Source: Candidatus Woesearchaeota archaeon
GTDB lineage: Archaea; Nanobdellota; Nanobdellia; Woesearchaeales; GW2011-AR15
DNA length: 17,874 bases
NCBI GenBank assembly: GCA_023701075.1
Contig: JAMPXQ010000010.1
Span: 1 to 17,874 of the forward strand
Direction of reading: 5' to 3'
The translations under genes and the position numbers were made by a program. Numbering within the stretch: position 1 is the first letter of the stretch; the number at the start of each line of letters is the position of its first letter. Under the pieces are notes generated by a model. That model was given only the letters and a program-made list of their open reading frames with translations. It was not told the DNA's origin and ran no database searches. Positions 196 to 14,289 of the stretch are shown here, piece by piece.

Positions 196-645
196 CTATC
201 TTTTTTGAGGTAAGCCGTAGCGTCCAGCGACAGCAGGTTCTAGTTGTTGGTTTTTGATATGTCTAGAATAATTTCTTGCAGCTTGAGCAGCAGCAAATAC
301 TGCGTTAGGGTCTGTGCTAGATACATTGAGGACAACATGATGGTTCCAACCCATGATGTGATAAGAAGCCTGGAATGAAAATTTCAGTCCTGGCACATAT
401 ATCTCATATAGCTTGCCTTTGTTGATGAAGCCGATGTCAGATATCCCCATATATTCAGCTGCAAAATTCATCCCGATTATCTCTCTGAGTTTTCCGGGGT
501 CGAAATCAAGCCGGTTTGAATCTGCATCTATCATCAGCTCTAATTCAAGAGAATATATATCATTCTCAAATCTTGGAGGTTTCTGAGATTTTATGAATCT
601 TCCATCTGGCATGTAAGCGCTAAGTTCAGATACCCAAGGGTCCAT
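196..645 (-). CDS. Hypothetical protein, 149 aa
   Basis: I do not recognise this protein. It is soluble, without a signal peptide or membrane segment. It starts MDPWVSELSAYMPDGRF and has a central segment of alternating hydrophobic and polar residues (about 65-110, including HHVVLNVSSTDP), suggesting a mixed alpha/beta fold. An Ala-rich helix (FAAAQAARNYSRHI) and a basic tail follow. A TATA-like element (TTTTAAAAG, about 667-675 on the minus strand) lies about 25 nt before the ATG, so the mRNA is probably leaderless. It precedes dphB by 31 nt on the same strand, but dphB seems to have its own promoter, so co-transcription is uncertain. Codon use looks like that of its neighbours. No function is proposed. 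Confidence 0.65.
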   Translation of the reverse strand: MDPWVSELSAYMPDGRFIKSQKPPRFENDIYSLELELMIDADSNRLDFDPGKLREIIGMNFAAEYMGISDIGFINKGKLYEIYVPGLKFSFQASYHIMGWNHHVVLNVSSTDPNAVFAAAQAARNYSRHIKNQQLEPAVAGRYGLPQKR

Positions 646-1580: not shown

Positions 1581-1637
1581 GAAAAAATAAGTTGCCTCTA
1601 TCCTAAATCTTCGGGGGTGATTAACAGATAGAGGCAA
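1581..1637 (-). terminator. Hairpin terminator downstream of ftsZ
   Basis: Read on the minus strand after the ftsZ stop, a perfect 11-bp stem (TTGCCTCTATC pairing with GATAGAGGCAA; plus-strand positions 1592-1602 and 1627-1637) encloses a 24-nt loop containing CACCCCC. It is followed at once by CTTATTTTTTC, a U-rich tract (1581-1590). This looks like a hairpin plus U-tract terminator. Archaeal termination depends mainly on the U-tract, so the stem may serve RNA stability or regulation instead. The 5' arm is also complementary to the candidate RNA at 3122-3414. Confidence 0.6.
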
Positions 1638-1670
1638 GAAGGCACCACACAAAGACTACGGGTGATCTTC
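1638..1670 (-). other. Second hairpin in the ftsZ 3' untranslated region
   Basis: GAAG-G-CACC (1638-1646) can pair with GGTG-AT-CTTC (1661-1670), giving two 4-bp helices split by a small internal loop around a 14-nt apical loop (1647-1660). It abuts the terminator stem without a gap, so the whole 1578-1680 interval is structured. It is weaker than the neighbouring stem and could be fortuitous. Confidence 0.3.
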
Positions 1671-1680
1671 AAATCTATGC

Positions 1681-2748
1681 CTATCTGACTATCTCAATCC
1701 CCAAGTCTTCAGACATCTCTCTCATCCTGGCATTTGCACTTTTCACATCATGCTTGCCTAGGATCCATGGGCTCTTTACACCTGTGACGATTGTCATCAC
1801 AGTCAATTTGCCTTTCATATCTTCTTGGATTCTTGCTCCCCAGATGACGTTTGCATCTTCATCCAAACTCTCTGTGACAAGCTCTCCAATCTTATTGATC
1901 TCATCAAGTGTCAAGTCAGGTCCGCCGCATACATGGATTAAAGCACCTGTTGCACCTTCATAGTTGATATCCAAAAGTGGGTTGCTTAGTGCTCCTTTGA
2001 CTGCTTCTTCTACTCTGTTGTTTGTATCTGAAGCGCCAACACCAATTGCTGCAACTCCTCCATTTGTCATGATTGCTTTTACGTCAGCATAATCGAGGTT
2101 GACAAGTGAAGGCAGCGCAATTGTTTCAACAATCCCTTTGATCATTGTTGCAATGAGTTCATTTGCCACAGCAAAAGCCTGTCTGATAGGCAGGTTTCCT
2201 GCAATCTGCACAAGCCTGTTGTTGTCGATGACAATGACTGTGTCGCATACTTGTCTTAGCTGCTGCAGTCCGAATTCTGCCTTGTCTACTCTTGCTCTCT
2301 CGATCTTGAATGGCATAGTGACTGTTCCAATAACGATTGATCCTGAATCTCTTGCTACTTCTGCAATTACTGGGGCTGAACCTGTTCCTGTCCCTCCACC
2401 CATTCCTGCGCAGACAAAGACCATGTCACTTCCTTTTAATGCGTCTTTTATCTCATTCATCTGCTCATGTGCAGCTTCGCTTCCTCTTTCTGGAAAACCA
2501 CCGCAGCCAAGTCCTCTTGTCGTCTCTCTTCCGATCAAGAATTTCCTGTCTGATTCAGTGATGCTTAGATGCTGCTGGTCTGTGTTGCATGCAATGATTT
2601 CAGCACCCTTGATGCCTTTTTGGTAAAGCCAGTTCACCATGTTGTTGCCTGCACCGCCAGCGCCTATGACTTTGATAGTTGCTTGGTGTACTTCTACACT
2701 TTCGAATCCTTGGTCCTGTTTCAAAGCGTTGTTCATGACGTATTCCAT
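1681..2748 (-). CDS. ftsZ: Cell division GTPase FtsZ
   Basis: FtsZ is the tubulin-like GTPase that polymerises into the division ring at mid-cell. From the ATG at 2748 the protein has 355 residues. It shows the first nucleotide-binding loop GAGGAGNN (29-36), the tubulin signature GGGTGTGSAP (117-126), and the T7 synergy loop NLDYADV (217-223) whose acidic residues act on the GTP of the next subunit. The reading frame stays open to 2847, but the extra 33 residues (MWLILERSMFKLV...) are unlike FtsZ N-termini and overlap the promoter, so I chose the internal MEYVMNN start. GGGGG lies about 8 nt before that ATG and could act as a weak SD. It is monocistronic, convergent with the methyltransferase-like gene, and has an unusually elaborate upstream region. 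FtsZ1 versus FtsZ2 is not decided here. Confidence 0.95.
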   Translation of the reverse strand: MEYVMNNALKQDQGFESVEVHQATIKVIGAGGAGNNMVNWLYQKGIKGAEIIACNTDQQHLSITESDRKFLIGRETTRGLGCGGFPERGSEAAHEQMNEIKDALKGSDMVFVCAGMGGGTGTGSAPVIAEVARDSGSIVIGTVTMPFKIERARVDKAEFGLQQLRQVCDTVIVIDNNRLVQIAGNLPIRQAFAVANELIATMIKGIVETIALPSLVNLDYADVKAIMTNGGVAAIGVGASDTNNRVEEAVKGALSNPLLDINYEGATGALIHVCGGPDLTLDEINKIGELVTESLDEDANVIWGARIQEDMKGKLTVMTIVTGVKSPWILGKHDVKSANARMREMSEDLGIEIVR

Positions 2749-2777
2749 TTTGTTTTCCCCCACATCCTTGTGTTTGA

Positions 2778-2918: not shown

Positions 2919-2984
2919 GATTCTTATATTTTATCTTGTATATAAACGTTATTATACTTAGAAATATATTTTCTAGACTATAGT

Positions 2985-3000: not shown

Positions 3001-3120
3001 TACTTAATTTAATGACGTGGAACATGCCGATCAAAAACAGGTTATCTAATATTTTTATGTGGTTTTTTTAGTCTTGGTTTATCATGCAGGCGATTGTTTT
3101 TTCTCTCTTATCTGGCGACA
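3001..3120. other. T-rich gene-free spacer
   Basis: No credible coding sequence is seen here. On the plus strand it is T-rich with runs at 3052-3057, 3062-3069 and 3097-3102. Near its right edge TGGCGACAT (3113-3121) is the reverse complement of ATGTCGCCA at 2893-2901, so a minus-strand transcript reading through could pair the two segments. Confidence 0.4.
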
Positions 3121-3121
3121 T

Positions 3122-3414
3122 TATTAAGAAAAATAGAGACACCCTATTTTTCTTGTGTTGGGGAGGGGTAAGAAAGGGCATAGGGTGCCTCTCTAGTAAT
3201 TGTGACTCAGTGATTTTGTTTGTTTTTTTGTATGGGTTTTTTGCTCCCCTGGTAATTGTTTGGGTGGGTGGGGTAGAAATCCCAGGGGAGCGTGATCATA
3301 AAGATCGTAAAAGCACAGCTTCTACGACCGGTTTCTTCTTGCCTCAATCAAATTGCTTGGGTCTTCACGAAGCAAAGCTTCAGGTTTCACCTCTTGATCC
3401 CTAAGGTCCAAGCA
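3122..3414 (-). ncRNA. Candidate structured noncoding RNA, about 290 nt
   Basis: A minus-strand TATA box (TTTTATATAT, 3431-3440) would start transcription near 3410-3415. From there the RNA folds into clear helices, given by plus-strand positions: 3408-3413 with 3355-3360, closing a domain with two small hairpins (3389-3392/3382-3385; 3377-3381/3369-3373); a 12-bp stem 3318-3329 with 3303-3314 and a 3-nt loop; a 10-bp stem 3282-3291 with 3243-3252; and a 13-bp stem 3180-3192 with 3135-3147 plus an inner 6-bp stem. The last is followed by a U-rich tract (3121-3134), as in a terminator. Several pairs are G-U only on the minus strand, which fixes the strand. I looked for RNase P and SRP RNA core motifs and did not find them; no known family is recognised. 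It could also be the first part of a long ftsZ leader. Confidence 0.6.
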
Positions 3415-3430
3415 TCTTTGACTTGTTGAA

Positions 3431-3440
3431 ATATATAAAA
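3431..3440 (-). promoter_or_regulatory. TATA box for the candidate structured RNA
   Basis: TTTTATATAT on the minus strand is a good archaeal TATA box and sits about 20-25 nt before the first helix of the RNA. The right copy of the 15-bp inverted repeat lies about 60-75 bp upstream of the predicted start, where an activator could bind. Confidence 0.5.
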
Positions 3441-3443
3441 CAA

Positions 3444-3458
3444 TACTAGTATATAAAT
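3444..3458 (+). promoter_or_regulatory. Plus-strand TATA box with palindrome
   Basis: TATATAAA at 3451-3458 is a strong plus-strand TATA box. It overlaps the perfect palindrome ATACTAGTAT (3444-3453). Initiation would fall near 3480, giving a leader of about 45 nt for the gene at 3525. A second TATA-like element, TTATATTT (3499-3506), could instead give a leaderless start at 3525. It is back to back with the TATA box of the minus-strand RNA. Confidence 0.45.
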
Positions 3459-3473
3459 GTTACGCTTTTTGAT

Positions 3474-3488
3474 ACCAGTATAGGAAAA
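3474..3488 (+). repeat. Right copy of a 15-bp inverted repeat pair
   Basis: ACCAGTATAGGAAAA is the exact reverse complement of 2985-2999. It overlaps a local inverted repeat, CAGTATA (3476-3482) and TATACTG (3491-3497) around GGAAAAGG. It lies between the plus-strand TATA box and the start codon at 3525, so bound protein could affect both divergent transcripts. Confidence 0.55.
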
Positions 3489-3524
3489 GGTATACTGATT
3501 ATATTTCACATCTATATCTTTATT

Positions 3525-4790
3525 ATGGTGTATTCATTTCTTTTAGCGATGGTGCAAGTGATGGATGTGACCGTGGATTTGATAGATCTGATAGAGAATG
3601 GCCAGCCTAAGCAGGCGTGGAAGAATCTGGATGTCGGTTCTGAGTATTACCTGACTAATATTGCGTCTCTTGGAGATTCTGAGAAGTTTGCAATGTGTCG
3701 TGATGTAGGAGATGCGTTCATAACTGCACTGCTGGGTGCAGAGCATTCATCGAATTTTGATAGGGCTGTGGAGATATACAGGAGGGCGTTATATAATGCT
3801 GCCCAGGCAGGAATAAGCATATTGGCGCTTGAAGACGGTCTTGAGACTAGGCTTCTATCAATTAGGCATCCCAAATTAAAAGAGGAGAAACAGGTGGAGT
3901 CTTTAATCATTCTAAATAAAGACGCAGTCATATTGCAGGGGATGACAGATTCAACTATAGCGTCCAGGTTTGCAAACAGGCTTATCTATGCAGGATACGC
4001 AGGATTCGAGACATTTGGGTCTGCACTTGATTACATAGAGGCTAATGCAGAGAAAAAAGATAGCCTGCTGTATGAAGGGCTTGCAAATATCGCATTAGGG
4101 ATAGCAAGGGAATACGATTCTGTCGATTTCAGGAGGCTGGATTTCCGTAATGCCAGATCATATGAACACGATTGCCATGATATAGCGAAAAGTTACATGG
4201 ATATTGCTGCAGCATTCATCAAGAAAGCTATCAGTCTTTCAGGAGATAGGTTGGCAGATTCAAAGAGATATATAGACATGACAAGCGGGATTGATAATCC
4301 GCAGATGAGATGGGTAAGGGCAGAGATGATGATAGCAGGTTATGATGCGTCTGAACGAAAAGCAGACCTGCTAAAAGAGATTGAATCTGAATACAAAGCA
4401 TTGATCCGTGGTCTCTTGATGCCAAAGAACTATTCTGATCAGGAGTTCAATCCATTGCCCCAGAACGCGATAATTGCAAAACTTGAGCTTTTAGGGCTGC
4501 ATTTCCTGATAGAATCAGGTCTTCCGGTAACCCAGCTGAGGGAAAATTTAGTTGCAAGAGGATATCATGGAGAAGATAGGGCATATACGACAGAGATAAT
4601 CCATAAGGTCGGTAAGTTCTTGCAGGCGAATGACAGTCCAAGTTTGAAGAGAGACCTTGGGGAATTATATGAATTATATGACACTAGGATAAGGTATCTT
4701 GGTCAAAGCAGGCAGAATCAGGATATCATAAGCCACTGCAGGCATGTGAAACTTGATATTTTCGGATATCTTCACCCGGAATCAAGATAA
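3525..4790 (+). CDS. Hypothetical alpha-helical protein, 421 aa, possibly TPR-like
   Basis: I do not recognise a family. The protein is almost entirely helical with repeated amphipathic helices. Segments such as FDRAVEIYRRALYNAAQAG (about residues 79-97) resemble tetratricopeptide helices, but I cannot place a regular 34-residue period. No catalytic motif, signal peptide or membrane segment is clear. The start is uncertain: ATG codons at 3525, 3549 and 3561 are in frame. The first 12 residues (MVYSFLLAMVQV) are hydrophobic and may not be translated if MDVTVDLIDLIENG at 3561 is the true start. It is alone on the plus strand, and its last 65 bp overlap the convergent truncated HAD-like gene. 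The shared promoter region with the structured RNA could link their expression. A scaffold or binding role is possible but only a guess. Confidence 0.75.
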   Translation: MVYSFLLAMVQVMDVTVDLIDLIENGQPKQAWKNLDVGSEYYLTNIASLGDSEKFAMCRDVGDAFITALLGAEHSSNFDRAVEIYRRALYNAAQAGISILALEDGLETRLLSIRHPKLKEEKQVESLIILNKDAVILQGMTDSTIASRFANRLIYAGYAGFETFGSALDYIEANAEKKDSLLYEGLANIALGIAREYDSVDFRRLDFRNARSYEHDCHDIAKSYMDIAAAFIKKAISLSGDRLADSKRYIDMTSGIDNPQMRWVRAEMMIAGYDASERKADLLKEIESEYKALIRGLLMPKNYSDQEFNPLPQNAIIAKLELLGLHFLIESGLPVTQLRENLVARGYHGEDRAYTTEIIHKVGKFLQANDSPSLKRDLGELYELYDTRIRYLGQSRQNQDIISHCRHVKLDIFGYLHPESR

Positions 4791-4977
4791 CATATAAAAA
4801 TTCACTATATTCTATTTTAGAGAGATATCCGAATCTTCTATCGAAAAGCCATATCAGTTTTTTTCTGTCATATGTTTCAGCCGGAGATATTTTTATTTGT
4901 AGATGTTCATCCAGCCAAGCAGAAATTAGTTTAGGTGTATCTGCAATCACGCCGTCAAAATCTATCCCGATTCTCAT
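4726..4977 (-). CDS. Truncated HAD-like phosphatase fragment, 83 aa
   Basis: The start MRIGIDFDGVIADTP carries the HAD superfamily motif I (DFDGV, residues 6-10), whose first aspartate is the usual nucleophile. A cap-like helical part follows, but the protein ends after 83 residues. Motifs II, III and IV, which hold the phosphate and Mg2+, are missing. The ATG overlaps the stop of the upstream 318-aa gene (ATGA), with GAGGT a few nt before it, so translation would be coupled. Its 3' end runs through the end of the convergent gene at 4790, which suggests a former longer gene was cut by a rearrangement here. It is probably a decaying remnant, although a small protein with another role cannot be excluded. 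Confidence 0.6.
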   Translation of the reverse strand: MRIGIDFDGVIADTPKLISAWLDEHLQIKISPAETYDRKKLIWLFDRRFGYLSKIEYSEFLYVILIPGEDIRKYQVSHACSGL

Positions 4978-5930
4978 CGGATTACCTCAACAGCTTTGAT
5001 GCAGTCAGTATAATGCAGTTCATCCAAATAGTCTATCACGCCTATCCCGGGGATGATGCCTCTATCTAAACATAGTTGGCAGGTAGGTTCTTGTAATATG
5101 ATCTTTGGATTATTATAATACCGCAAAACTGAATCTCTTAGCACCTTAAGTCCATCTTGGTGTGATTTATAGCAATCAGGTCTTGTAGGGTTAGTATCAG
5201 GATTCCAAGTCCCATTCTGATAAATCAGGACATTTGGAGATTTTTGGGAATGCGGAAATTCTTCTTCTAATGCTTTTATGAAATTCAGTTTTTCCATCCC
5301 CAAGGATTCTCCAAGTCTTGGTGCTCTGACAGGGCTTTTATTTTCGTTATATGCATGCATAGTTCCTACTCTTCCGCCCATATCAAGCGAGGCCATAGAC
5401 ATCAAGTATCCGCAAAAACCATCTTCAAGAACCTTTGAATGGAATGCAGGATCTATTTTCTCAATAATCTGATAGACCATATTATGGATTGAGCCATAAA
5501 ATCCAAGGTCGCCAATGATTATCTTTTCTCCGGTGAACAATTGGCTGTCAACTAGGTATTGAAATATCTCTTCTGGGGTATTATTCCCTCTGCTGTCTGA
5601 AAATCTATCCTCGCTCAGCAATTTTTCGAGGCTGAAAAGTCCCCTGCCTGTTCCTGCGGAGCCGAAACAAAAACCGGGAAACCCGATGACTTTTCTGCCT
5701 AAGAAAAGAGGTTTTAGCGTGATATCCTTCCATTCTGGAAGATTGATCTCTTCAATCATGATGGCAGCAAGGTCATGGAGCGGCTCAGATCCCATGAGCA
5801 TGAAGGATAAAATGCCACCATTTCCTTCAAAGAGGCTCAGCGCTTTAGCAGCAGCAGGGATTGCCCATCTTTTTAATCCTCTATCATATGGGTAGGTTAT
5901 TCTGTTGAAATCATCGTAGTAATGAAGCAT
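4974..5930 (-). CDS. Hypothetical protein, 318 aa, coupled to a HAD-like fragment
   Basis: No family is recognised with confidence. The protein is soluble. A segment IIIGDLGFYGSIHNMVYQII (about 157-176) resembles the 'VDxGxxGS(I/L)' strand-turn-helix found in some proteins that travel with HAD phosphatases or phosphosugar enzymes. Upstream of it are GFPGFCFGSAGTGRGLFSLE (about 83-102), rich in glycine, and near the C-terminus a CQLC pair (about 287-290). The gene starts at an ATG about 26 nt after TTTAAATATT (5951-5960), so it is likely leaderless, and it is translationally coupled to the HAD-like fragment by an ATGA overlap. The coupling suggests the pair once acted together, perhaps on a phosphorylated small molecule; this is inference only. 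Confidence 0.7.
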   Translation of the reverse strand: MLHYYDDFNRITYPYDRGLKRWAIPAAAKALSLFEGNGGILSFMLMGSEPLHDLAAIMIEEINLPEWKDITLKPLFLGRKVIGFPGFCFGSAGTGRGLFSLEKLLSEDRFSDSRGNNTPEEIFQYLVDSQLFTGEKIIIGDLGFYGSIHNMVYQIIEKIDPAFHSKVLEDGFCGYLMSMASLDMGGRVGTMHAYNENKSPVRAPRLGESLGMEKLNFIKALEEEFPHSQKSPNVLIYQNGTWNPDTNPTRPDCYKSHQDGLKVLRDSVLRYYNNPKIILQEPTCQLCLDRGIIPGIGVIDYLDELHYTDCIKAVEVIR

Positions 5931-9162: not shown

Positions 9163-9170
9163 ATCACCTC
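9163..9170 (-). promoter_or_regulatory. Strong Shine-Dalgarno overlapping the upstream stop codon
   Basis: GAGGTGAT on the minus strand matches eight bases of the expected anti-SD at the 16S rRNA 3' end. It contains the TGA stop of the HPr-kinase-like gene and is four bases before the ATG at 9158. It decides the start of the Nudix gene and couples it to its upstream partner. Confidence 0.7.
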
Positions 9171-10345
9171 GGTTCAATGGTATGTATTCCTTTTCTCTGA
9201 TACTCAAATATCTGTTCACCTATCTCTAGCATTAACTTATATCTCTCTTCTGAAGGCCTTAGATTGTCACTCTCATCAAAGACAACTGATCTTGTATTGA
9301 TAAGCACTGCTCCACCTGTTTTTTTTGCAAGCCTGTCAAATCCAGTTGCAATATACTCAAGGAACTCAGGGGCCTGATTGACAAGGACAGGAAGTTCAAA
9401 TGGGCTAGGATAGTATCCTATGTCAGCCATTCCATTCCTTAGCTTTGGCGCTTGATAATCTCTCAGATAATTAGATGTTGATTCTGGCGGGATTGCAGTG
9501 ATGATTTCATTCCCTTGCCAATAGGTTCTATGTGCATCTGGAATCCCCCAAGATAGGATTACTAAGCATCTTGTCCCAGTATATCTATCTATATCACCAT
9601 ATATTTCCCTAGGCTTGATGAATGCTCTGCTTCCGAAATCAATATCTTGGGGTAGTAGTGTTCCATCCAATAAGGTATTTTCAAGTCCATATAATCCTTT
9701 AATGTCATTGATATCGACCCTGCCGGATGCTCCTTCAAGCAGTGTCCTTAATCTGGGATACCATAGGTCAGTCTCAAGATTGATCCCTCTCTCAAAACCA
9801 TGTTTATCCTCATGTACAAAAGTCAGGTCTTCAGAGAATGGCGTAGAGTTCCGCATTTTCGCAATGAAATTACCGATGCTAGATTTTCCGGTTCCAGTAG
9901 CTCCGATCACTGCAATCGGGCTGTTGACAAGAGCATGCAGAAGTATTCCTTCATTGCCAGTCAAGAAAGAGTCATAATGGATTATCCCGGCTAATGCATT
10001 CTTTACATTTCCAAACCAGGAGGTTCCATCTATCTCAATATTTCCTCTAGGGTCTATATACATCCCATGCGGTCTGTTTGAATTGGTTCTAATCGTTAGT
10101 TGATATTCATCAGTTTCAAAATGAAATCCAGGTGAGAAATTAAATGAATTAGGTAAGATCTTAGCTAAGTAAGGAGAATCTGTTTCTATCCTCACTACAG
10201 TATTATTTATTTCAACCCAATGGCTGTAAGGTAATTCTTCAAATGGTAATCTCTCATCTATATATTGGATAGGCGCTCGTGAATTGGTATTTGTATTTGA
10301 AATTAAGACGTGTCCTTGTGTTTTTACTGATTCATCCTGTGGCAT
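9164..10345 (-). CDS. HPr kinase-like P-loop protein
   Basis: The 393-aa protein has the layout of HPr kinase/phosphorylase-related kinases. An N-terminal beta-rich part contains VVRIETDSPYLAKILPNSF (about 50-68). Then come GILLHALVNSPIAVIGATGTGKSS with Walker A GATGTGKS at 148-155, and an acidic SEDLTFVHEDKHG segment where the family has its catalytic acidic residues. Those kinases phosphorylate a serine in a partner protein or a small molecule; the PTS-linked HPr itself is not expected here, so the substrate is unknown. The frame opens at TTG 10384, but ATG 10345 follows AAGGAGTG at a good distance and was chosen. A TATA box TTATATATAAAT (about 10391-10402) lies upstream. It is coupled to the Nudix gene, so the two probably act on one nucleotide-related substrate. 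Assignment rests on the P-loop context only. Confidence 0.65.
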   Translation of the reverse strand: MPQDESVKTQGHVLISNTNTNSRAPIQYIDERLPFEELPYSHWVEINNTVVRIETDSPYLAKILPNSFNFSPGFHFETDEYQLTIRTNSNRPHGMYIDPRGNIEIDGTSWFGNVKNALAGIIHYDSFLTGNEGILLHALVNSPIAVIGATGTGKSSIGNFIAKMRNSTPFSEDLTFVHEDKHGFERGINLETDLWYPRLRTLLEGASGRVDINDIKGLYGLENTLLDGTLLPQDIDFGSRAFIKPREIYGDIDRYTGTRCLVILSWGIPDAHRTYWQGNEIITAIPPESTSNYLRDYQAPKLRNGMADIGYYPSPFELPVLVNQAPEFLEYIATGFDRLAKKTGGAVLINTRSVVFDESDNLRPSEERYKLMLEIGEQIFEYQRKGIHTIEPR

Positions 10346-10350
10346 AGTTT

Positions 10351-10463
10351 CACTCCTTCTTTTTTGGAATGCGATTTTGGACAAGTTTCATTTATATATA
10401 ACTTTGTTCTATAATTATATAATAACACAAATTATTAATATAACAAGTTCATCCGTTAGGACA
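10351..10463. promoter_or_regulatory. Divergent promoter region
   Basis: This short AT-rich interval serves two genes. On the minus strand TATATATAAAT (10391-10401) and the SD AAGGAGTG (10351-10358) serve the HPr-kinase-like gene. On the plus strand TTATTAATATAAC (about 10431-10443) lies about 25 nt before the AbrB-PhoU start at 10464, with another AT-rich element, ATTATATAATAA, near 10416. No clear operator is seen. Confidence 0.5.
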
Positions 10464-13926: not shown

Positions 13927-14289
13927 CTAAATATTCATATCTGGCAATCTATCAAAAGGCGGAAGCCTTGATGAGCAGTTTTCAGGGTCATAAAAATATT
14001 CAGAGATAGGTCTTCCCTGGAAATGCAGGATGCCTTTTATTACTTCCACTTTTATTATGCCGTATTCATGCATGATTAGGTTATCAAGCTTCCTAAGCGG
14101 CATGTCTGAATGTATCTCGCCATTTATCCATCCAGAACTGGTCCTGGTCCAAGAAGGGCTGACCCTTTCAACTGTTTCAGGAAAATATATCTTATATTCT
14201 AAGGAGAACAGGTCTGTTTTGACAGTGAGACGGCCATTCATCGGAAGATTGGTAAGATAGCCTCTATCATCATATACTATCAGGAACAT
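13927..14289 (-). CDS. Hypothetical protein, 120 aa
   Basis: I do not recognise it. The protein begins MFLIVYDDRGYLTNLPMNGR and alternates short hydrophobic strands with Gly, Asn or Pro turns, suggesting a small mostly beta domain (for example LTVKTDLFSLEYKIYF and GIIKVEVIKGILHFQGR). There is no signal peptide, membrane segment or metal-binding cluster. TTTAAAC (about 14310-14316, minus strand) lies about 24 nt before the ATG, so a leaderless transcript is likely and the gene is probably real. It is convergent with the Nudix gene and divergent from the ribbon-helix-helix operon. Confidence 0.6.
   Translation of the reverse strand: MFLIVYDDRGYLTNLPMNGRLTVKTDLFSLEYKIYFPETVERVSPSWTRTSSGWINGEIHSDMPLRKLDNLIMHEYGIIKVEVIKGILHFQGRPISEYFYDPENCSSRLPPFDRLPDMNI

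Follow-up and report, generated by a model that had tools for sequence, protein, structure and literature searches.

A C-loop RNA upstream of ftsZ in a Candidatus Woesearchaeota archaeon: member of a conserved hairpin family with poly-G Shine-Dalgarno sites as proposed targets

Gene structure of the region upstream of ftsZ

We analyzed a 17,874-nt stretch of DNA from a Candidatus Woesearchaeota archaeon (hereafter, the window), which is contig C40 of a MAG with 76% completeness. On its minus strand, the window carries ftsZ and, upstream of it, promoter elements followed by a series of hairpins (Table 1). A preliminary description had read this upstream region as a complete and novel small-RNA gene instead of a long ftsZ leader. 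The multi-hairpin domain closed by GCTTGG/CCAAGC, the 12-bp stem with its 3-nt loop and the U-rich tract after the last stem are all present as described. The 10-bp and 13-bp stems between them were also found, but they are not ordinary stems, as both carry long C-rich loops. Hairpin 1 is followed by A and not by U. Likewise, the TATA box placed at 3431-3440 exists as a TATA-like stretch (TTTTATATAT), but the promoter that relatives have in common corresponds to the box further upstream at 3457-3446. Of note, six predicted proteins of the window (196-645, 786-1577, 3525-4790, 4974-5930, 9164-10384 and 13927-14289) gave no Pfam match at E<=0.1.

Table 1 Features of the ftsZ region of the window, all on the minus strand.
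Feature	Position	Strand	Basis or remark
C-loop hairpin in the ftsZ 3' UTR (loop with AATCACCCCCGAA), then T-rich stretch	1592..1637	-	sequence
Possible hairpin in the ftsZ 3' UTR, loop GTAGTCTTTGTG	1643..1664	-	complementary to ACACAA in the ftsZ leader of the window
ftsZ coding sequence (MEYVMNN...)	1681..2748	-	ORF
Poly-G Shine-Dalgarno GTGGGGGA of ftsZ, proposed target	2756..2763	-	sequence
ftsZ TATA box	2935..2947	-	RNA ends some 175 nt upstream of it
Predicted transcript, about 308 nt	3120..3427	-	fold -89.1 kcal/mol; both ends inferred
U-rich tract, predicted 3' end	3123..3134	-	sequence
C-loop hairpin 2 (13-bp stem; loop core ACCCCTCCCC, 3169-3160)	3135..3194	-	R2 match 3138-3189, E 4e-7; BLASTN to G009, E 6e-7
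C-loop hairpin 1 (10-bp stem; loop core ACCCCACCCACCC, 3274-3262)	3242..3292	-	covariance model R2, E 0.0019
12-bp stem with 3-nt loop	3303..3329	-	folding
5' domain, multi-hairpin, closed by TCAAA..GCTTGG / CCAAGC..TTTGA	3347..3422	-	76 nt, -24.2 kcal/mol
Putative Shine-Dalgarno-like AAGAGGTGA within the 5' domain	3387..3395	-	sequence
Second TATA-like stretch	3431..3440	-	sequence
Conserved TATA box TTTATATACTAG	3446..3457	-	predicted start near 3427
Upstream promoter element TATAC-N7-TATACTGG (TATACCTTTTCCTATACTGG, 3494-3475)	3475..3494	-	kind common to promoters of 136-aa genes and free-standing copies

The minus strand from 3422 to 3115 folds to -88.4 kcal/mol, compared to -63.3 +/- 4.7 kcal/mol for shuffled sequences (z -5.4), and none of 100 shuffles folded as well. 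The plus strand holds an ORF at 3084-3404 that encodes 106 aa, so a protein gene such as this one, or a fold without any meaning, had to be considered. Given the z-score and the order-wide conservation of the minus-strand hairpins with covariation (see below), we regard a coding or chance origin as extremely improbable.

Comparison with known RNA classes

At gathering level, the covariance models of Rfam 15 yielded no match in the window, in line with the novelty claimed for the RNA, and only a single tRNA among 29 relative loci. All matches to the window region at E<=10 stayed far below their cut-offs; a potC match at 3296-3238 (E 0.72), for instance, scores 18.8 bits against a cut-off of 44 and is not credible. 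The preliminary description had looked for core motifs of RNase P RNA and SRP RNA and had seen none, and indeed the only matches of the genome to the archaeal models lie away from this locus, at C76:12583-12908 for RNase P RNA (RF00373) and at C100:5562-5834 for SRP RNA (RF01857). The 6C RNA (RF01066) was absent among the E<=10 matches in the window region, and its model found none of ten family genomes at E<=1, with a weak control (2 of 14 named genomes, none above cut-off). The 6C-like trait of two hairpins with C-rich loops is present in the window (3292-3242 and 3194-3135).

A family of C-loop hairpins

In a BLASTN comparison of the 311-nt region with 60 genomes, one clear match was obtained, namely of the last hairpin in genome G009 (E 6e-7), together with weaker ones in G004 and G008; all three lie just 3' of a small gene that encodes a protein of about 136 aa. 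Downstream of 90 such genes, a good part of the loci showed stems like GGCUCCC/GGGAGCC with loops like UUUCUUA-N-ACCACCCCC, and the window hairpins have the same GGCUCCC-type stem and UUCUU..ACCACCCCC-type loop. From 43 extracted hairpins, 34 were kept (nine long or odd ones were excluded) and used to build a covariance model, R2. Since both window hairpins are among these 34 training rows, the R2 match of the window is partly given by construction, and its independent link to the family is the BLASTN match to G009.

At E<=0.05, R2 recognized a hairpin in 34 of the 90 loci with a 136-aa gene. A threshold of E<=0.01 gave matches in 8/10 family genomes (a ninth appears only at E 0.8) and in 151/287 genomes of the order (Woesearchaeota), counting one locus each, with a tandem pair in six. 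When 38 genomes with no match listed in this search were screened again at a looser threshold, 17 gave a match at E<=0.5, including five at E<=0.01. Across the phylum, 72 of 279 genomes matched at E<=0.001 and all 72 belong to the same order, although the share of this sample outside the order is not stated. Relatives with names are mostly labelled Candidatus Woesearchaeota, Nanoarchaeota or Nanoarchaeia.

The stem varies among relatives while the loops are kept in sequence, making the C-rich loops the conserved part. In the training alignment, all 10 stem pairs contain double changes (38 cells compared to 7.6 in shuffled alignments), but the strength of this signal is inflated, because the rows had been picked for having a stem. 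The fairer test, which uses a sequence-only model, supports the stem as well: 92.5% of cells pair, and covariation amounts to 0.163 against 0.081 +/- 0.010 in shuffles, none of 500 being as high. Pairs changed on both sides numbered 4 versus 2.9 in shuffles, and 28/500 shuffles reached 4. The compensatory changes that the preliminary description would expect are thus found for the 3' hairpins, but conservation was not seen for the 5' half. A search of 99 genomes for the 5' domain returned its own match and one at E 0.68; no relative of this domain or of the 12-bp stem turned up in these genomes, and both thus appear to be peculiar to the lineage. Literature on DPANN or Woesearchaeota RNAs held, among the matches listed, no description of such an RNA. 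Altogether, we are highly confident that the C-loop RNA represents a real and new RNA family.

A repeat of a replication origin was also considered, in view of the inverted-repeat hairpins, the G run on the opposite strand and the adjoining DNA-binding-like gene. This reading was set aside, because the hairpins keep one orientation after the 136-aa gene, show compensatory stem changes and are often followed by T. Moreover, the GC skew of G002, a genome of the same genus used for genome-wide background counts, has its minimum near 860 kb and its maximum near 100 kb, and neither extreme lies at 186 kb, which likewise argues against an origin.

Genomic settings and promoter

Next to the window, 88 relative loci were classified by setting. 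Among these 89 loci, the hairpin stands after the 136-aa gene in 61, directly before ftsZ in 12 and free of both in 16, the window included. The set comprises the window, L222, L226, 26 loci of the order search and 60 further stretches and represents part of the 151 matched genomes; linked loci of the family genomes G001, G002, G004, G008 and G009 are excluded, and L240 counts as linked, its hairpin being directly 3' of the 136-aa gene. When loci were fetched by the protein alone, 51/80 had a hairpin on the coding strand 0-234 nt past the stop codon and one more had it about 1.3 kb off. The independent RNA of the preliminary description therefore holds for the window locus and 15 others but not for the C-loop family as a whole, since most of the relatives examined carry the hairpin as the 3' UTR of a protein-coding gene.

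All 16 free-standing copies have a TATA-like box 37-218 nt upstream, and in nine of them only 37-60 nt separate box and hairpin. This bears on the possibility that the hairpins are mere 3' end signals, i.e. terminators or stabilisers whose loops are kept for termination or 3' processing. T-rich DNA does follow many copies, including the one in the ftsZ 3' UTR. However, the nine copies with short spacing consist of a promoter and little else, such hairpins are too few in G002 for a general terminator, and hairpin 1 of the window lacks the U run; we therefore consider this explanation quite improbable. Between the genes of G002, C-loop hairpins with a stem of at least 9 bp were found in just three places, namely 3' of ftsZ, at the RNA locus and near 223 kb. 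The hairpin at 223 kb (G002:C1:223089-223147, minus strand; L081) has a 14-bp stem and the loop UUUCUUACUAUCACCCCACCC and lies shortly after a TATA box of its own, possibly forming a second free-standing C-loop RNA.

A common promoter type accompanies the hairpins. The TTTATATA box was found in 78/89 loci and is preceded by TATAC within 45 nt in 67 of those 78, compared to 11 of 103 promoters in G002. The window has both elements, which, being present together in 67/89 loci, do not mark every member. Its promoter layout equals that of the hairpin-linked 136-aa genes, where TATA box and ATG are 29-34 nt apart in 48 of 51 cases; the genes thus look leaderless, and the same distance places the predicted start of the window RNA near 3427. 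In the upstream regions of L139, L144 and L324-L403, an inverted repeat like TATAC-N6/7-GTATA was further observed. Many hairpin-linked 136-aa genes have it ahead of their TATA box and some unlinked paralogs have it 3' of the box, before the start, as would be expected of a single regulator that activates one class and represses the other.

The gene order in G002 is ftsZ, nitroreductase, a regulator-like gene, a helicase-like gene, the 136-aa gene, the hairpins and a Nudix gene, while the window shows similar genes in a different order and, in addition, hairpins adjoining ftsZ (gene names are predictions in both cases). G000, G003 and G006 have kept the hairpins, and their single 136-aa gene, which is of the poly-G type described below, lies away from them. 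Inspection by eye of three translated frames between promoter and hairpin 1 of the window revealed neither an ORF nor coding remnants of the 136-aa protein. Between the 136-aa-type promoter and the tandem 3' hairpins, the window gene instead contains the unrelated 5' domain. The simplest reading of these sequences would be that the ORF of the 136-aa gene was lost at this locus and the RNA was kept.

Alternatively, the region might act on ftsZ in cis only, as a long leader or attenuator. Consistent with this, the hairpin stands directly before ftsZ in the 12 loci mentioned above. In the window, however, ftsZ has its own TATA box at 2947-2935, between RNA and gene; the DNA upstream of ftsZ in nine family members was free of the RNA (three of these stretches being 177 nt or shorter); and 77/89 loci are not directly before ftsZ. 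Cis-only control thus appears very unlikely, and the view of the locus as a complete and novel small-RNA gene, not a long ftsZ leader, is supported by its sequence. A second TATA-like box was noted at 2811-2799 in the ftsZ leader (2950-2750, minus strand), and ftsZ may have two promoters. The leader also shares sequence blocks (CTAGTATTTAAAC and others) with those of family members.

As a further observation, a purine-rich motif, GGAAAA(A)GAGG (frequently GGGAAAAAGAGGTGA), occurs within 130 nt of the C-loop hairpin in 19/89 loci (L238, L239, L247, L248, L251, L256, L262, L300, L316, L320 and L322 among them), where about 0.03 per locus would be expected. It resembles a very strong Shine-Dalgarno sequence, and a hairpin often follows directly. 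We did not take it as part of the RNA, since even the loose pattern is near only 22/89 loci and missing from the rest.

The 136-aa protein

The protein of about 136 aa was detected in 86/99 genomes, and nine diverse relatives share 65-79% identity with the G002 copy. Searches of Pfam, NCBIfam and PDB gave no sequence relative (a single NCBIfam match at E 0.049 carries no weight). An AlphaFold2 model with a mean pLDDT of 85.6 shows what we read as a winged-helix-like arrangement, and Foldseek returned no match to it at E<=0.001.

Such a protein, or a C-binding one, could itself be the partner of the C-loops, which would then be protein binding sites and the RNA an autoregulatory element or sponge. 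The position of the hairpin after the 136-aa gene (61/89 loci, or 51/80 of those fetched by protein), the conservation of the loop sequence on a varying stem and the winged-helix-like model would fit this explanation. However, the RNA also occurs in G011, G072 and G087, where the 136-aa protein was not detected (these genomes are incomplete), a similar loop sits on an unrelated stem in the ftsZ 3' UTR, and the structural search offered no significant match that would hint at a ligand. Overall, we consider protein binding fairly unlikely as the function of the loops.

The 136-aa genes fall into two classes by their Shine-Dalgarno sequence. A poly-G type (GGGGG or GGGGA in 24 nt) precedes none of 51 hairpin-linked genes compared to 19 of 28 unlinked ones (Fisher 8e-12, uncorrected for shared ancestry; 79 of the 80 protein-fetched loci were readable, one being too short). 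For the linked class, the missing Shine-Dalgarno sequence is largely automatic, as these genes are mostly leaderless. Where the RNA stands before ftsZ, the adjoining 136-aa gene is of the poly-G type in 5/7 loci.

Poly-G site and 3' UTR of ftsZ

The ftsZ gene of the window likewise has a poly-G Shine-Dalgarno sequence. Taking GGGG within 28 nt of the start as the criterion, 28/30 ftsZ genes without the RNA in the leader are positive versus 0/12 with it (Fisher 8e-9, again uncorrected for shared ancestry); the window was tallied as without, because its own ftsZ TATA box lies between RNA and ftsZ, and tallied otherwise the counts become 27/29 and 1/13. An R2 search of the 30 loci without the RNA found it upstream in the window only, about 370 nt before ftsZ, with three loci offering 177 nt or less of upstream DNA. 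By the same criterion, 81/969 genes of G002 have GGGG, and GGGGG before the start was counted in 45/1161; these backgrounds are rough, like those for promoters and for pairing of start regions in G002, as gene starts were taken from the longest ORFs. If it acts through such sites, the RNA may therefore not be specific to ftsZ, given the 45 genes with poly-G Shine-Dalgarno sequences. By predicted name, the GGGGG genes of G002 include growth genes, among them those for FtsZ, PCNA, a ribonucleotide reductase, TFB, a thermosome and a PRPP synthetase.

In G033 and G040, the ftsZ copy preceded by the RNA has GGAGG and no poly-G, while a second ftsZ copy has GGGGGA. Further best-matching ftsZ copies have poly-G in 11/13 cases, and five other second copies (L428, L434, L436, L031 and L032) in none, so that poly-G does not extend to every ftsZ paralog. 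Poly-G at ftsZ was also seen in incomplete genomes without a detected RNA (G005, G007, G044 and G048; G045 reaches only E 0.23).

A C-loop hairpin with a different stem is present in the ftsZ 3' UTR of 28 of the 30 loci, with (C/U)CACCCCC in 26 and UACCCCC in 2. Among the 12 ftsZ genes with the RNA in front, the three readable ones had no such hairpin by eye. As poly-G and C-loop occur together in the same ftsZ mRNAs, an avoidance of pairing in cis does not hold for them. The 5' UTR of ftsZ pairs better with the 3' UTR from its own species than with that of another (p 0.0008, 29 loci, one of the 30 being excluded for its short leader). Many ftsZ mRNAs of the order have a second possible hairpin with the loop GTCTTTGTG located 5' of the 3'-UTR C-loop hairpin (L021-L030, L404-L423). 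In the window, this place is taken by the hairpin at 1643-1664, whose loop is in some relatives complementary to longer leader stretches such as ACACAAAGAC. The GTCTTTGTG loop is complementary to a ACACAAAGAC-like box of the leader, and the two could possibly form a separate interaction between 5' and 3' UTR.

Proposed mechanism

The poly-G sites, the 3'-UTR hairpins and the distribution of the hairpins suggest one partner for all C-loops, and the obvious choice would be a run of G in the ribosome binding site. We propose that the TATA promoter gives rise to an RNA of about 300 nt with its 3' end at the second C-loop hairpin and U-rich tract. Both hairpins would expose single-stranded loops of the type UUUCUU-N-ACCCC(U/A)CCC, which would base-pair with mRNAs that have a G-run Shine-Dalgarno sequence (GGGGGU and similar). 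Among the targets, ftsZ and the unlinked 136-aa paralog would come first; pairing would lower their translation and, through ftsZ, tie cell division to the level of the C-loop RNA.

When the 1222 start regions of G002 were ordered by their pairing energy with each of the two loops, the unlinked 136-aa paralog took ranks 68 and 156, versus 446 and 485 with reversed loops. In the case of ftsZ, the ranks are 73 and 140 of 1222, and 156 and 54 with reversed loops, so the energy ranking does not single out ftsZ as a specific target. A test for coevolution of loop and target in 18 genomes found the pairing of a loop with its own ftsZ no better than with a swapped one (p 0.86). Judging from these sequence comparisons, the chances that the C-loops pair with the poly-G Shine-Dalgarno sequences of ftsZ and the unlinked 136-aa paralog and lower their translation seem evenly balanced. 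More tentatively, and at present doubtful, there might be an RNA circuit that controls cell division across the order, in which the C-loops of the small RNA, of the leaderless regulator's 3' UTR and of the ftsZ 3' UTR compete for the poly-G Shine-Dalgarno sequences that mark growth genes, ftsZ and the regulator's paralog included; in the lineage of the window, the regulator ORF would have been lost, turning an mRNA into a non-coding RNA.

Relation to known systems and implications

Several bacterial and archaeal regulators invite comparison. We take B11 to be the 6C family (RF01066) of mycobacteria and other Actinobacteria. The mycobacterial B11/6C RNA is described as a small RNA with two loops of C strings that pairs with ribosome binding sites, and as repressing through the 5' UTR of eccB4 with its six-G tract (PMC10470900). 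The window RNA resembles it in its two C-rich loops and in the poly-G site of ftsZ. It differs in being archaeal, in its longer mixed UUUCUU/ACCCC loops and its extra 5' domain, and in that the C-loop hairpin lies inside the 3' UTR of a protein gene in most relatives examined. As proposed, the C-loop RNA would work like 6C/B11, but by model it is no member of that family.

RoxS, the equivalent of RsaE in Firmicutes, provides a second parallel. Its C-rich regions are described as pairing with G-rich sites, and it binds the Shine-Dalgarno sequence of two targets (PMC5419742). RoxS/RsaE is bacterial and of another structure, unlike the window RNA, which has no Rfam family match. For ftsZ itself, DicF is a precedent: this short prophage RNA blocks ftsZ translation at the start region and, to our knowledge, has no C-rich loops. 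DicF of Escherichia coli is described as a small RNA connected with cell division (PMC5069750). Among archaea, CdrS of Haloferax volcanii is a regulator of cell division (PMC8406309), but, unlike the window RNA, it is a protein.

The C-loop RNA adds a conserved, covarying RNA family, absent from Rfam 15, that roughly half of the genomes sampled from one archaeal order carry and that both its position and a similar loop connect with ftsZ. If true, it would plainly show one RNA element in three roles, as a 3' UTR, before ftsZ and as a free gene. If the proposed pairing is real, it would be an archaeal counterpart of the bacterial RNAs with C-rich loops and would offer a simple handle on how these uncultured archaea set their FtsZ levels.
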